Below are positions 41,956 through 48,102 of a stretch of DNA of 48,427 nt, piece by piece. The notes beneath the pieces were generated by a model, which searched no databases, was not told the origin of the DNA, and saw only the letters and a program-made list of their open reading frames with translations. Source of the stretch: Bacteroidota bacterium (GTDB taxonomy: Bacteria; Bacteroidota; Bacteroidia; Bacteroidales; B39-G9). Location: contig JADFUR010000075.1 in assembly GCA_015222055.1 (NCBI GenBank), positions 1 through 48,427 on the forward strand, written 5' to 3'. The position numbers and the translations under genes are program-made. Numbering within the stretch: the stretch's first letter is position 1; every line of letters begins with the position of its first letter.

Positions 41956-42951
41956 ATGAATGAAACAGTAAATATTAAAGAGTTAAATGAAAGAATTCAA
42001 AAGGAGAGTAGCTTTGTCGATATGATTAATATTGAGATGAATAAAGTTATTGTTGGACAAAAGCATTTAACCGAAAGTTTATTAATAGGCTTGCTTTCTG
42101 ATGGTCATATTTTATTAGAAGGTGTTCCCGGTTTAGCAAAAACATTGGCTATTAGTACTCTTTCAGATATTATTGACGCTAAATTCAGCAGAATTCAATT
42201 TACTCCTGACTTATTGCCTGCCGATTTAATTGGGACAATGATATATAGTCAGAAAAAAGAAGAATTTACTGTTAAAAAAGGTCCAATTTTTACAAATTTT
42301 GTATTAGCCGATGAAATAAACAGAGCTCCTGCAAAAGTTCAAAGTGCATTATTGGAAGCCATGCAGGAAAAACAAGTTACTATTGGTGATAATACTTTTA
42401 AATTAGAACGACCTTTTTTAGTAATGGCAACGCAAAATCCAATTGAGCAAGAAGGAACCTACCCTTTACCCGAAGCTCAGGTTGACCGTTTCATGCTTAA
42501 GGTTGTTATTGATTATCCTAAAAAAGAAGAAGAGAAAGTTATTATCCGTCAAAACTTAATGGAAACCTTTCCAAAAGCTACTAAAATACTTAAGGCCGAG
42601 GATATAATTAGAGCTCGTAAGGTTGTTCGTGATGTTTATATGGATGAGAAAATTGAAAAATATATTGTCGATATTGTATTTGCAACTCGTTATCCCGATG
42701 ATTATAATTTATCACAATTTAAAGAAATGATTAGTTATGGGGGCTCTCCTCGTGCAAGCATCAATCTTGCTTTAGCTGCTAAAGCCTATGCTTTTATTAA
42801 TCGTCGTGGTTATGTTATACCTGAAGATATTCGTGCTGTTTGTCACGATGTTTTGCGTCACAGAATTGGATTAACCTATCAGGCCGAAGCCGAAAATATT
42901 ACTTCTGAAGAGATTATAAGTCAAGTGTTAAATACTGTTGAAGTTCCTTAA
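41956..42951 (+). CDS. MoxR-family AAA+ ATPase
   Basis: A 331-aa AAA+ chaperone-like ATPase that starts the bat operon. Walker A GVPGLAKT (56-63), Walker B VLADEINRAP, sensor motif ATQNPIEQEGTYPLPEAQVDRF and arginine-finger region. MoxR proteins act with vWA-domain partners in assembling or activating protein complexes; here the partners are the DUF58 protein, BatA and BatB encoded downstream. The gap to the DUF58 gene (532 bp) is far larger than expected for this operon because a four-helix-bundle cassette is inserted. Confidence 0.93.
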   Translation: MNETVNIKELNERIQKESSFVDMINIEMNKVIVGQKHLTESLLIGLLSDGHILLEGVPGLAKTLAISTLSDIIDAKFSRIQFTPDLLPADLIGTMIYSQKKEEFTVKKGPIFTNFVLADEINRAPAKVQSALLEAMQEKQVTIGDNTFKLERPFLVMATQNPIEQEGTYPLPEAQVDRFMLKVVIDYPKKEEEKVIIRQNLMETFPKATKILKAEDIIRARKVVRDVYMDEKIEKYIVDIVFATRYPDDYNLSQFKEMISYGGSPRASINLALAAKAYAFINRRGYVIPEDIRAVCHDVLRHRIGLTYQAEAENITSEEIISQVLNTVEVP

Positions 42952-42961
42952 AGGTTTAAAG

Positions 42962-43047
42962 TGACTAGAGTTAAGAGTGTCTAGAGTGCCTAGAGTGCCT
43001 AGAGTGCCTAGAGTGCCTAGAGTGCCTAGAGTTAAGAGTGCCTAAAG
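42962..43047 (+). repeat. 9-bp tandem array TGCCTAGAG (left arm of cassette 1)
   Basis: TGACTAGAG, TTAAGAG, TGTCTAGAG, then five exact TGCCTAGAG units (42987-43031), TTAAGAG and TGCCTAAAG (43039-43047), ending 9 bp before the start codon of the four-helix-bundle gene. The 7-bp TTAAGAG interruptions recur on both sides of the main run. The same word appears inverted at the other end of the gene (43411-43447). Confidence 0.95.
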
Positions 43048-43056
43048 TTTTTAAAG

Positions 43057-43425
43057 ATGGATAATAAGGAATTTAGTAAACAATTAGAATTAAGAACCAA
43101 GAAATTCGCAATTAGTATTATTAAGCTATCTGCTTCACTGTCAAACACCCCGGAAAGTAAGGTGATAAAGTATCAGATTTCAAAATCAGGAACAAGTGTA
43201 GGCGCAAACTATAGAGAAGCAAATCGTTCAAGGAGTAAAGCAGACTTTGCAAATAAAATTAAAATATGCGAAAGTGAAGCAAGTGAAACAGTTTTTTTAT
43301 TAGAAATAATTACTGATTTAAATTGGGTTGATACTGAAAAAATGAAATTAATATTGACAGAAGCCAATGAAATTCTTGCTATTTTTACTTCAATTGGTAA
43401 GAACCTAAAACTCAAGGCATTTTAG
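43057..43425 (+). CDS. Four-helix-bundle protein (23S rRNA IVS/S23 type)
   Basis: A 122-aa, mostly helical protein of the four-helix-bundle family, named after proteins encoded in intervening sequences of 23S rRNA genes and related to the DGR accessory protein Avd. The family core YQISKSGTSVGANYREANRS (about 44-63) and KADFANKIKICESEASET are present. Its function is unknown; such proteins form pentamers and may bind nucleic acid. It sits between moxR and the DUF58 gene, where compact bat operons have nothing. Its start is preceded by a 9-bp tandem array, and its last codons (KLKAF) lie within an inverted array of the same word. It is intact, unlike the related gene at 46633-47025. Confidence 0.9.
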   Translation: MDNKEFSKQLELRTKKFAISIIKLSASLSNTPESKVIKYQISKSGTSVGANYREANRSRSKADFANKIKICESEASETVFLLEIITDLNWVDTEKMKLILTEANEILAIFTSIGKNLKLKAF

Positions 43426-43447
43426 GCATTTCAAACTTAAGGCACTT
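43411..43447 (-). repeat. Inverted 9-bp array (right arm of cassette 1)
   Basis: On the plus strand: CTCAAGGCA (43411-43419), TTTTAGGCA (43420-43428), a 7-bp TTTCAAA, CTTAAGGCA (43436-43444), CTT. Read on the minus strand these are TGCCTTAAG, TGCCTAAAA and TGCCTTGAG, variants of the left-arm word TGCCTAGAG. The array contains the last five codons and TAG stop of the four-helix-bundle gene. Confidence 0.85.
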
Positions 43448-43483
43448 ATTAATTGCTTTTTTAAATACAAATAAAAATTATGT

Positions 43484-44362
43484 ATGGAAACTTCTGACTT
43501 ATTAAAAAAAGTAAGACATATTGAGATTAAAACTCGCGGATTATCAAAAAATATTTTTGTGGGAGAGTATCATAGTGCGTTTAAAGGTCGTGGTATGACT
43601 TTTAGTGAAGTTCGTGAATATCAATACGGAGATGCTATTCGTGATATTGATTGGAATGTTACTGCACGTTTTAATCACCCTTATGTAAAAGTATTTGAAG
43701 AAGAACGTGAGTTAACAGTTATGCTTTTAATTGATGTTAGTGCTTCAAAAGAATTTGGAACGCAAACACAATTTAAACAAAATATGATGACTGAAATAGC
43801 TGCGGTATTGTCTTTTTCTGCCATCAAAAATAATGATAAGATTGGTGTAATATTTTTTAGCGATAAAATTGAAAAATTTATTCCACCAAAAAAAGGACGA
43901 AAGCATATCTTAAGAATTATTCGCGAACTTATTGATTTTAAACCTGAAAGCAAAGGCACAAATATTACCGAAGCTTTAAAATATTTCACAAATGTTATAA
44001 AGAAACGTTGTACTGCTTTTATCCTTTCCGATTTTATTGATGATGGTATTGACAATAATCTTGAAGATGCTTTTAAAATTGCTAATAAAAAGCACGATAT
44101 TGTTGCTATTAAAATTTTTGATAAAAGAGAAAGTCAATTGCCTGCAATAGGACTTGTTAAAATGAAAGATGCCGAGACCGATAAATATATTTGGGTAGAT
44201 ACTTCTAATAAGCAAGTTAGAAGTAACTATGAAAAAAGTTGGAAAGAGACAGAACTAAAACAACATACAATTTTTAAAAAGTCGGGTGTTGATTATATTT
44301 CTGTAGCTACCAACGAAGATTATATTAAACCTTTAATTGGATTATTTAAAAGAAGAAACTGA
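43484..44362 (+). CDS. DUF58/vWA-fold protein of the bat operon
   Basis: A 292-aa DUF58 protein. The conserved YQYGDAIRDIDWNVTARFNHPYVKVFEEERE block (about 46-76) is followed by a vWA-like metal site DVSAS (84-88). DUF58 genes almost always follow moxR, and the products are thought to be clients or adaptors of the MoxR ATPase. It is separated from moxR by cassette 1; the downstream BatD-like gene starts 1 bp after its TGA. Confidence 0.92.
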   Translation: METSDLLKKVRHIEIKTRGLSKNIFVGEYHSAFKGRGMTFSEVREYQYGDAIRDIDWNVTARFNHPYVKVFEEERELTVMLLIDVSASKEFGTQTQFKQNMMTEIAAVLSFSAIKNNDKIGVIFFSDKIEKFIPPKKGRKHILRIIRELIDFKPESKGTNITEALKYFTNVIKKRCTAFILSDFIDDGIDNNLEDAFKIANKKHDIVAIKIFDKRESQLPAIGLVKMKDAETDKYIWVDTSNKQVRSNYEKSWKETELKQHTIFKKSGVDYISVATNEDYIKPLIGLFKRRN

Positions 44363-45412: not shown

Positions 45413-45453
45413 ATTGGTAATTATTTAGTGTCTGTCTTTAAAGTCGCTTATTT

Positions 45454-45532
45454 GTCATTTCTACCGTTAGGGAGAAATCCCGTTTATTTACTATGAGTTA
45501 AATAGATTTCTCGCTATCGCTCGAAATGACAG
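45454..45532. mobile_element. 79-bp MITE-like element with 27-bp inverted ends
   Basis: The left end (45454-45480) starts TGTCATTTC and ends GAGAAATC. The right end (45506-45532) is its inverted copy with 5 mismatches in 27. The core is 25 bp, AT-rich, with no coding potential. It lies in the 199-bp gap between the BatD-like gene and batA. The text ATTTCTCGCTNNCGCTCGAAATGACA is one I know as a dispersed repeat in many Bacteroidota. As RNA it would fold into a long hairpin inside the bat transcript. Confidence 0.8.
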
Positions 45533-45588: not shown

Positions 45589-46581
45589 ATGAGTAATATA
45601 ACATTTGCAAATCCAAATTTTTTCTTTTTGTTTCTGATTCCAGTAGCAATGATTGTTTGGTATATTCTCAAACAAAACACTGCTAATGCTTCAATTCAGA
45701 TTTCGAGCATTAAAGGTTTTGAAGGAACAAAAAAAACATATAAATATTATTTACGACATCTCCCTTTTATTTTGAGGGTTTTGGCTATTTCGTTTTTGAT
45801 TTTAGTTATTGCACGCCCACAAACAACAAATAAATGGCAAAGCTCAACAACAAAAGGTATTGATATTGTTTTAACTCTCGATATCTCGGGCAGTATGTTG
45901 TCTGAGGATTTTAAACCAAATCGTATTGAAGCTGCAAAACAAGATGCAATTGAATTTATTTCTGGCAGAACTGACGATAGGATAGGGCTTGTGATTTTTA
46001 GTGGTGAGAGTTTTACTCAATGTCCGTTAACAACCGACCATGCTGTTTTAATTAATTTATTTAAAAATATTAAAAGTGGCATGATTAAAGATGGAACTGC
46101 CATTGGTTTAGGCTTGGCCAATGCTGTTAATAGATTAAAAGACAGTAAAGCAAAAAGTAAAGTTATTATTTTGCTAACAGATGGTGTTAATAATCAAGGT
46201 GAAATAGCACCTATAACTGCTGCCGAAATTGCTCAAACATATGGAATTAGAGTTTACACAATTGGTGTTGGAACAAGAGGCATGGCTCCTTATCCTTTCA
46301 AAACTCCTTTTGGAACTCAATATCAAAATGTAAAAGTTGAGATTGATGAAGATATTTTAACCCAAATAGCTCAAATGACTGACGGTGAATATTTTAGAGC
46401 GACTGACAATAGGAGGCTAAAACAAGTTTATCAAGAAATTAATAAATTAGAAAAATCAAAGATTGATGTTAAAAAATATAGCAATAAACAAGATGAATAC
46501 CTTATGTTTGCTATTATTGCCGCATTATTATTAATCTTTGATATTTTATTGAAAAATACGATTTTAAGGAATATTCCTTAG
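45589..46581 (+). CDS. batA: BatA, vWA-domain membrane protein
   Basis: A 330-aa inner-membrane protein: two N-terminal helices (about 10-27 and 58-77), a vWA domain with the metal site DISGS (98-102, followed by MLSEDFKPNR), and a C-terminal helix (about 300-322). GLVIFSGESFTQCPLTTDH and LLTDGVNNQGEI are typical. Named from the Bacteroides aerotolerance (bat) operon; works with MoxR, presumably in envelope maintenance. It follows the BatD-like gene after a 199-bp gap holding a MITE-like element. Confidence 0.9.
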   Translation: MSNITFANPNFFFLFLIPVAMIVWYILKQNTANASIQISSIKGFEGTKKTYKYYLRHLPFILRVLAISFLILVIARPQTTNKWQSSTTKGIDIVLTLDISGSMLSEDFKPNRIEAAKQDAIEFISGRTDDRIGLVIFSGESFTQCPLTTDHAVLINLFKNIKSGMIKDGTAIGLGLANAVNRLKDSKAKSKVIILLTDGVNNQGEIAPITAAEIAQTYGIRVYTIGVGTRGMAPYPFKTPFGTQYQNVKVEIDEDILTQIAQMTDGEYFRATDNRRLKQVYQEINKLEKSKIDVKKYSNKQDEYLMFAIIAALLLIFDILLKNTILRNIP

Positions 46582-46595
46582 AAGACAGTTAAGAT

Positions 46596-46630
46596 TTTAA
46601 AGTTCAAAGTTTAAAGTTTAAAGTTTAAAG
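46596..46630 (+). repeat. 7-bp tandem array TTTAAAG (left arm of cassette 2)
   Basis: Five contiguous heptads: TTTAAAG (46596), TTCAAAG (46603), and TTTAAAG at 46610, 46617 and 46624, ending 2 bp before the ATG of the broken four-helix-bundle gene. It starts 15 bp after the batA stop. Confidence 0.95.
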
Positions 46631-46632
46631 TT

Positions 46633-47025
46633 ATGTCAACAATCAAACGATTCGAAGATATTAATGCTTGGCAGAAGTCAAGAGAACTTTGTAAAGAGAT
46701 TAATAAAATTACAAGCTTTAAAGATTTTACAAAAGATTTTGAGTTGAAAAATTAAATAAACGCTTCAAGCGGTTCGGTAATGGATAACATAGCAGAGGGG
46801 TTTGAAAGAAGCGGGAATAAAGAATTTATTTATTTTTTAAGTATAGCAAAAGGTTCAGCAGGAGAAGTTCGGTCTCAATTGTATAGAGCGTTAGATAGAA
46901 ATTATATTGACAATCAAACATTTGATAAAATATTTAATCTTGCTGAAATAACTATTCAATTAATAGCCGGACTAATGAATTATTTAAAAAAATCATCAAT
47001 TAAAGGAACGAAATTTAAACATTAA
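46633..47025 (+). pseudogene. Four-helix-bundle protein gene with in-frame TAA
   Basis: The reading frame from ATG 46633 encodes MSTIKRFEDINAWQKSRELC and onward, is stopped by TAA at codon 41 (46753-46755), and continues in the same frame to TAA at 47023-47025 (130 codons in total). The text after the stop is the family core [20 protein letters not shown] and [19 protein letters not shown]. Family members have a glutamine at the stop position (LKNQIxASSGSV), so a single CAA to TAA change explains it. A shorter product could start at ATG 46780 (81 aa) but would lack the first helix. It lies between batA and batB, with heptad arrays on both sides, and belongs to a different subgroup from the intact gene at 43057. 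Confidence 0.88.
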
Positions 47026-47042
47026 ACATTAAACATTAAACT
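47014..47042 (-). repeat. Inverted 7-bp array (right arm of cassette 2)
   Basis: Plus strand: TTTAAAC (47014), then ATTAAAC at 47021, 47028 and 47035. On the minus strand this is GTTTAAT x3 and GTTTAAA, nearly the same as the left-arm word (GTTTAAA register). It contains the last codons (FKH) and TAA stop of the broken four-helix-bundle gene and ends 8 bp before batB. Confidence 0.9.
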
Positions 47043-47049
47043 TATATCC

Positions 47050-48102
47050 ATGTTTCAATTTGCACATACAAATTATTTATATTTTTTATTACTAATACCT
47101 GTAATGATAATAATTTTTATTGTTTCATTACAAATAAAAAAGAAAGCAGTTAAATCGTTTGGTGATTTAGAAATTATTGCCGATTTAATGCCTAATGTTT
47201 CTGTTAGAAGACCAAAACTGAAATTTATTCTGTTATTATTTGCATTAAGCTTTATTATTATTGGAATTGCCGGACCACAGTTTGGAACCAAACTAAAAAA
47301 AGTTAAACGCGAAGGTATAGAAATGATTTTTGCTCTAGATGTATCGAACAGTATGATGGCTGAAGATATTAAGCCTAATCGTCTTGAGCGATCAAAACAA
47401 GCAATATCTAAATTAATAGATAAATTGCATAACGATAAAATCGGAATGATTGTTTTTGCTGGTGATGCATATACACAGCTTCCAATAACAACCGATTATT
47501 CGGCAGCTAAAATGTTTCTTTCAACAATAAATCCTTCAATTGTGCCTAAGCAAGGTACTGCAATTGGAACGGCTATTAATCTTGCAATGAGCTCGTTTTC
47601 GCCTGATAACAATAAAAGTAAAGCTTTAATTATTATTACTGATGGTGAAAATCATGAAGATAATGCTGTTGAAATGGCAGAAAAAGCAAAAGATGAAGGT
47701 ATTGTTGTTCATACTATTGGAATGGGTTTGTCAAAAGGTGCACCAATTCCTGTTATAGGCAGTTATGGTCAACGTGATTTCCGAACAGACAAAAATGGGA
47801 AAGTTGTTATCACAAAATTAAATGAACCAATGTTGCAGGAAATAGCTTCGGCAGGTAATGGTCTTTATATACGTGCAAATAACTCAAATGCAGGTATAAA
47901 TACATTGTTCAGAAAAATAAACAAAATGGATAAGACAGAAATAGATGCAAAAATTTATTCTGAATATGATGAGCGGTTTCAATATGCTATTGCAGTTGCT
48001 TTATTTCTTTTATTAGTTGATTTTTTGATTTTAGAAAGGAAAAACAAATTTTTTAAAGACGTTAATGTTTTTAAATTGAACGTTCATAAAACTAAAAATT
48101 AA
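47050..48102 (+). CDS. batB: BatB, vWA-domain membrane protein
   Basis: A 350-aa relative of BatA: N-terminal helices (about 8-27 and 57-75), a vWA domain with the metal site DVSNS (97-101, followed by MMAEDIKPNR), VFAGDAYTQLPITTDYSAA, ITDGENHEDN, and a C-terminal helix (about 310-328) before a basic tail. In other Bacteroidota batB is followed by TPR gene batC and then batD/batE; here only repeats are seen before the window ends. Confidence 0.9.
   Translation: MFQFAHTNYLYFLLLIPVMIIIFIVSLQIKKKAVKSFGDLEIIADLMPNVSVRRPKLKFILLLFALSFIIIGIAGPQFGTKLKKVKREGIEMIFALDVSNSMMAEDIKPNRLERSKQAISKLIDKLHNDKIGMIVFAGDAYTQLPITTDYSAAKMFLSTINPSIVPKQGTAIGTAINLAMSSFSPDNNKSKALIIITDGENHEDNAVEMAEKAKDEGIVVHTIGMGLSKGAPIPVIGSYGQRDFRTDKNGKVVITKLNEPMLQEIASAGNGLYIRANNSNAGINTLFRKINKMDKTEIDAKIYSEYDERFQYAIAVALFLLLVDFLILERKNKFFKDVNVFKLNVHKTKN

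Follow-up and report, generated by a model that had tools for sequence, protein, structure and literature searches.

A four-helix-bundle (S23) gene between inverted word arrays in a bat operon: a probable copy of a widespread mobile cassette

The small gene found between moxR and a DUF58 gene in a bat operon of a Bacteroidota bacterium is probably (at roughly 0.6) one copy of a widespread mobile cassette that resembles the intervening sequences (IVS) of 23S rRNA genes, i.e. an S23 gene enclosed by inverted arrays of its own word and lodged in a co-directional gene pair. The window, that is, the whole stretch of DNA analysed here, comprises 48,427 nucleotides and contains two such cassettes. 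Gene and arms formed one unit of inheritance, the two arms of a cassette matched each other while words differed between cassettes, and close S23 protein relatives at unrelated sites shared their word. Since the matched inverted layout surrounded most of the examined S23 genes in several phyla, a widespread mobile cassette is indicated. This unit was mobile in relatives and the window copy is likely to be mobile too.

The window cassette is preceded by a gene for a MoxR-type AAA ATPase (41956..42951, plus strand; Pfam AAA_3) and followed by the gene for a DUF58 protein (43484..44362, plus strand; Pfam DUF58). Its left arm is a 9-bp array on the plus strand at 42974-43032, composed of 6.6 copies of unit AGAGTGCCT (equivalent to TGCCTAGAG) with 98% matches. 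Degenerate units flank this array from about 42956 to 43056, one of them filling the gap up to the ATG at 43057. The S23 gene (43057..43425, plus strand) is intact and codes for a four-helix-bundle protein of 122 aa, whose scores placed it in PF05635 (E 1.5e-17, 64.2 bits for a cut-off of 33.8) as well as in TIGR02436 (E 4e-23, 81.7 bits for a cut-off of 24), and which matched PDB entry 2rld, composed of five chains (E 2.6e-16). The right arm (43411..43444, minus strand; from the sequence and a genome word search) is made of three inverted words lying over the stop codon: CTCAAGGCA at 43411-43419, TTTTAGGCA at 43420-43428, with the stop codon TAG inside it (43423-43425), and lastly CTTAAGGCA at 43436-43444. 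Both the array before the start codon and the inverted words over the stop had been recognized in a preliminary description of this DNA, as had the pairing of the arms at nine of nine positions counting G-U, which was correct by inspection; the minimum-free-energy fold of 42950-43480 likewise paired both arms (z -2.14, 3 out of 100 shuffles folding equally well).

The word itself was rare. With up to 3 mismatches allowed, the doubled word TGCCTAGAGTGCCTAGAG matched the own genome (3.75 Mb) six times, in every case at the locus described above (five in the left array and one on the minus strand at 43411-43428), and its reversed control pattern had none in the same genome under the same conditions. 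Between different flanks, the word recurred with an 83% identical protein in genome G003 (L055) and with a 78% identical one in G005 (L056). The strength of this locus comes from that rarity and from these relatives, since its inverted-flank score of 12.5 (see below) was in the top 9% relative to mismatched S23 flanks and missed the top 5%. The own genome displayed 12 PF05635 matches, 11 of them above the cut-off.

A second cassette with the same layout, a different word and a matched-arm score of 20.5 occurred in the same operon, between genes for a BatA-type protein (45589..46581, plus strand; Pfam BatA and VWA) and a BatB-type VWA protein (47050..48102, plus strand; Pfam). Its left arm, 5.3 copies of TTTAAAG (46596..46632, plus strand; repeat search), is followed by an S23 gene (46633..47025, plus strand; PF05635, E 3.9e-30) and by the inverted right arm, 3.9 copies of TTAAACA (47015..47041, minus strand). 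Its predicted fold also paired the arms (z -2.6). The gene is probably a pseudogene because of an in-frame TAA (46753-46755). In G001 the arms of this cassette faced each other with no gene between them; G002 kept the gene.

The layout was examined throughout the S23 family by scoring the 230 nt upstream of each gene against the reverse complement of the 230 nt downstream, mismatched flank pairs from other S23 genes providing the null (5000 permutations). Set 1 comprised 80 stretches, 12 of the own genome and 28 plus 40 of relatives, some listed matches being omitted, mostly weak ones or those at contig ends. The profile found 82 S23 stretches in this set (none in L012, L026, L038, L039 and L040), and 73 genes from 14 genomes were scored after removal of duplicates and short flanks. 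Their matched mean was 19.4 versus 10.9 for mismatched pairs (permutation maximum 12.26), with 54 of 73 genes in the top 5% for the inverted orientation and 10 of 73 for the direct one. Set 2 (51 of 54 genes scored, in 50 phylum-wide stretches taken from the top-scoring rows) gave 15.5 versus 9.2 (maximum 10.78; 33/51 in the top 5%). Set 3, which may share species with set 2 and was drawn from named genomes (79 of 80 loci scored, these being the best 80 of 565 confirmed), gave 16.6 versus 9.2 (maximum 10.64; 57/79). Set-3 loci with titles outside Bacteroidetes, mostly metagenome bins and with Ignavibacteriales counted as outside, reached the top 5% in 16 of 18 cases. Altogether, 144 of the 203 PF05635 genes were in the top 5% for inverted match and 59 below it, and the matched mean of each set exceeded all 5000 permutations.

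A score of at least 18 in the inverted orientation was reached by 86 of the 203 S23 genes. In set 1 the corresponding number was 45 of 73, and 34 of these 73 scored at least 20. Direct matches of at least 18 were recorded for 19 of the 203, 12 of which also displayed the inverted one. Of 105 control ORFs located in the window or in set-1 stretches, two reached 18 and one reached 20, the latter being an L039 ORF over a sub-threshold PF05635 match. Seven of the 136 control ORFs from set-3 loci reached the threshold (given as 18 and as 20); of the five best, those in L196, L232 and L198 were S23 genes by sequence, and those in L240 and L231 were not, yet displayed strong inverted flanks. Matched inverted arms were thus a feature of S23 genes as a class that control genes rarely displayed, in support of the proposal that an IVS-like cassette had settled in the operon.

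Genes of the GxxExxY type (PF13366) from the same genomes (27 scored out of 30 loci) displayed direct matches of at least 18 in 15 cases and inverted ones in 9. Inspection of L272-L301 showed GxxExxY flanks to be mostly direct arrays, often long, in contrast to the inverted S23 arrays. GxxExxY genes with direct arrays are perhaps small gene cassettes of another kind.

Most arms were built of heptamers (201 of 306, against 57 with units of 8 nt and 12 with units of 9 nt), so that the 9-mer of the window is a minority length. Arm polarity was nearly fixed: G exceeded C in the left arm of 76 loci and the reverse held in 9 (sets 1 and 2), the figures for set 3 being 53 and 1. The dinucleotide AG was enriched in 171 consensus heptamers (110 versus 79.7 expected, z 6.0). 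The number of units in an array differed between sister species.

A clear relationship was observed between words and proteins. Among pairs without homologous outer flanks, which are not independent of each other, a word was considered shared at a score of at least 18; this applied to 26 of 27 pairs with at least 70% protein identity, 30 of 135 at 60-70%, 95 of 2279 at 50-60% and 39 of 2868 at 30-40%. Co-inheritance by itself would also lead to shared words. At one gap in one genus, G066, G078, G094 and G105 shared the word of their S23 gene, and G140 carried another word with an S23 gene 59% identical to that of its sister genomes. The flanks of this gap were 89-95% identical for the closest three genomes, and G109 had no gene there. 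At a second gap of the same genus the gene was present in G066, G140 and G105 and absent from G078, G094 and G109.

Signs of movement came from G003, where L064 and L065 were 95% identical over about 600 bp, and L075 and L076 97% identical over about 600 bp, in each case between unrelated flanks. The G003 elements ended in inverted repeats with the pattern GGTTYT. An exact target duplication of 8 bp was present at L075, L076 and L064, i.e. at three of the six G003 elements inspected (chance of identical 8-mers, 9 in 200,000); L047 displayed a duplication matching at 7 of 8 positions, and none was seen at L065 and L077. The ends of L076 and L065 were set by analogy since their outermost base departs from the repeat. 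Terminal repeats with duplications were found in G003 only, and none were defined for the window cassette. Along with the word that follows its gene and the unit number that varies between sister species, these sharp-ended copies uphold the earlier suggestion of a mobile unit whose arms are word arrays.

The G003 ends may resemble those of ISL3- or IS66-type elements. An autonomous transposase bearing the same ends was looked for and dismissed, as the exact end sequence occurred only at two S23 elements and matches with 2 mismatches did not rise above the control level (4 of 8 matches carried 2 mismatches; control 8).

Gene-less relatives of the cassettes were also encountered. In L131 (about 944-1030) a foldback without a gene carried TTCAGGAG, a word that also lies beside an S23 gene of G078 and of G105. 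Outside cassettes, 31 foldbacks were recorded in 971 kb, at least two of them being runs of N. Short-word foldbacks without a gene were also noticed in L171 (near 4100) and L190 (near 2300).

The bat operon was compared in 30 loci including the own one, with moxR in view in 29. G002 displayed an orthologue of the window gene, broken by a stop codon and lacking the left array; in G024 a remnant of another S23 gene, read by eye, lay between GTTAACTG-type inverted arms. The other moxR-DUF58 gaps measured 4 to 453 nt, some holding arrays and some other coding text. Homologues without arrays had been named beforehand as evidence against a cassette: most homologues did carry them, with the G002 orthologue as an exception. 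The exact empty site expected in relatives was not encountered, as the gene-less gaps of G001, G078, G094 and G109 provided no clean pre-insertion site; they hold arm-like or other array text, which leaves the exact ends undefined there. The interpretation given in the preliminary description is, on the whole, partly supported. In L117 (1-63; G001:C95) the contig begins inside a GGCTAAAG-like array directly 5' of the DUF58 gene.

The closest known counterpart is the 23S rRNA IVS of Coxiella burnetii, where, in the portions consulted of PMC4990558, the start codon of the S23 gene is preceded by three GACAGAT heptamers in tandem (some strains have fewer) and inverted repeats at the ends pair as a stem of 28 bp. 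RNase III cuts this IVS, the 5' site being at the first heptamer (PMC4990558). According to the same portions, translation of the S23 ORF is doubted and no function is known for the S23 protein (PMC4990558). The window cassette likewise displays an S23 gene within complementary ends (the inverted words and their predicted fold) and short tandem words directly before the start codon; word copy number varies in both systems (between strains in Coxiella) and the ORF decays in both. In contrast, the word of the window has 9 nt instead of 7 and its host is a protein operon between moxR and DUF58, outside any 23S rRNA gene; a search for rRNA families in 20 loci, including L007 and L001, recovered no rRNA, the sole match being a pan motif.

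This resemblance lends some credit to an RNA-processing function, as envisaged in the preliminary description, in which the arms would pair in the transcript and RNase III would cut the stem, releasing the S23 part or splitting the operon mRNA, so that the arms would be kept for RNA pairing. The pairing of the arms in the folds predicted for the two cassettes of the window and the RNase III cut in Coxiella at the first heptamer (PMC4990558, in the portions consulted) are in keeping with such a function, as is orientation: 152 cassettes were co-directional within tandem gene pairs and 6 antisense, with 21 in other arrangements and 24 unplaceable. Yet GxxExxY genes were also mostly co-directional (19 versus 1 antisense), which means that this trait is not special to S23; control ORFs had both neighbours co-directional in 118 of 181 cases. 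Orientation bias as a sign of insertion through RNA was dropped for the same reason. The folds, moreover, had just a moderate advantage over shuffled sequences (z -2.1 and -2.6). Arm differences compatible with a G-U pair on the sense strand of RNA were not in excess in the 140 loci (136 versus 149 in the mirror class), nor in sets 1 and 2 (95 versus 101). Selection on the arms for RNA pairing was set aside, as neither of these G-U tests supported it, and RNA processing as a whole is considered unlikely.

Somewhat less likely still is a regulatory role, according to which the arrays would serve S23 proteins as operators, or as sites in mRNA leaders, for the control of their own and neighbouring host genes, the cassettes being domesticated and not mobile. 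Adjacency of the left arm to the start codon would suit such a role. So would the 43 of 203 cassettes that were linked by homologous flanks and traced to a beta-oxidation operon (the three that were read adjoin fatty-acid oxidation genes), a group towards which the sampling query leaned. Their S23 proteins were strongly constrained, with dN/dS of 0.02-0.05 at the site common to four species (G066, G078, G094 and G105), compared with 0.06-0.35 in 11 other pairs except for 1.63 in the very recent pair L075/L076; some copies therefore look domesticated. Arms in this group matched within cassettes (15.4 versus 10.1 mismatched). Against the regulatory role, a mirrored right arm is superfluous for autoregulation alone, cassettes occur at many unrelated sites and differ between sister species, and stop codons often break them, examples being the second cassette of the window and, in G002, the orthologue of the first one. 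Loci L131, L140, L154, L178 and L228 and those linked to them (43) showed S23 cassettes with differing words recurring in this fatty-acid oxidation operon in many Bacteroidota.

That S23 genes merely lie among the short word arrays in which intergenic DNA is rich is highly improbable and already contradicted: arrays without S23 genes in the moxR-DUF58 gaps of relatives and the 31 foldbacks mentioned above would fit such a by-product, but arms match their own partner and not other cassettes, control ORFs seldom do so, arm polarity is nearly fixed, GxxExxY arrays of the same genomes are mostly direct, and words are associated with proteins across sites.

For the mobile cassette, the following mechanism may be considered. 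At either end of its cassette the S23 protein would bind the word repeated there, so that arms and protein would stay matched, and the enzymes of movement would come from elsewhere because the cassette encodes no other protein. S23-bearing IVS of 23S rRNA genes would then be cassettes that landed in rRNA. A four-helix-bundle fold and a pentameric state are known from Avd, the accessory protein of diversity-generating retroelements, which works with a reverse transcriptase and a repeat pair. A broader proposal, put forward tentatively and held to be doubtful as a whole, is that the S23 family could consist of word-specific array binders, perhaps with one word for each subunit of a pentamer, each subfamily with its own, mostly heptameric words, forming minimal mobile cassettes in many phyla with gene-less derivatives and with the rRNA IVS as members. 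The word array travelling with each protein is a candidate ligand, predictable for other S23 members. Should S23 proteins indeed read these words, the family would offer natural array binders of readable specificity. The operon cassettes also connect the intervening sequences of rRNA genes with a far larger group of insertions in operons.

Other repeats and elements share part of this organization. Like MITEs and other non-autonomous transposons, some G003 S23 cassettes display terminal inverted repeats and 8-bp target duplications; unlike MITEs, S23 cassettes hold an S23 gene and inner word arrays, and the window copy has no defined outer repeats. Tandem heptamers in intergenic DNA are known as STRR in cyanobacteria. 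Direct repeats of the heptamer TAACTGA, present in Beggiatoaceae, Cyanobacteria and some Bacteroidetes, are likewise intergenic and often located just 5' of start codons, but they repeat one word directly, and the portions of PMC4679880 consulted mention neither an S23 gene nor an inverted pair. A search of the open-licence literature revealed no general description of S23 genes flanked by inverted word arrays.

Further repeats were noticed in the window. Upstream of batA, a stretch at 45453-45531 with TGTCATTTC ... GAAATGACA ends is absent from the same gap in G001 and G002 and looks like a small repeat insertion. Both contig ends (1-205 and 48242-48367) consist of AAATCCTGT-like word arrays, at which the assembly may break and which resemble those beside some GxxExxY genes.
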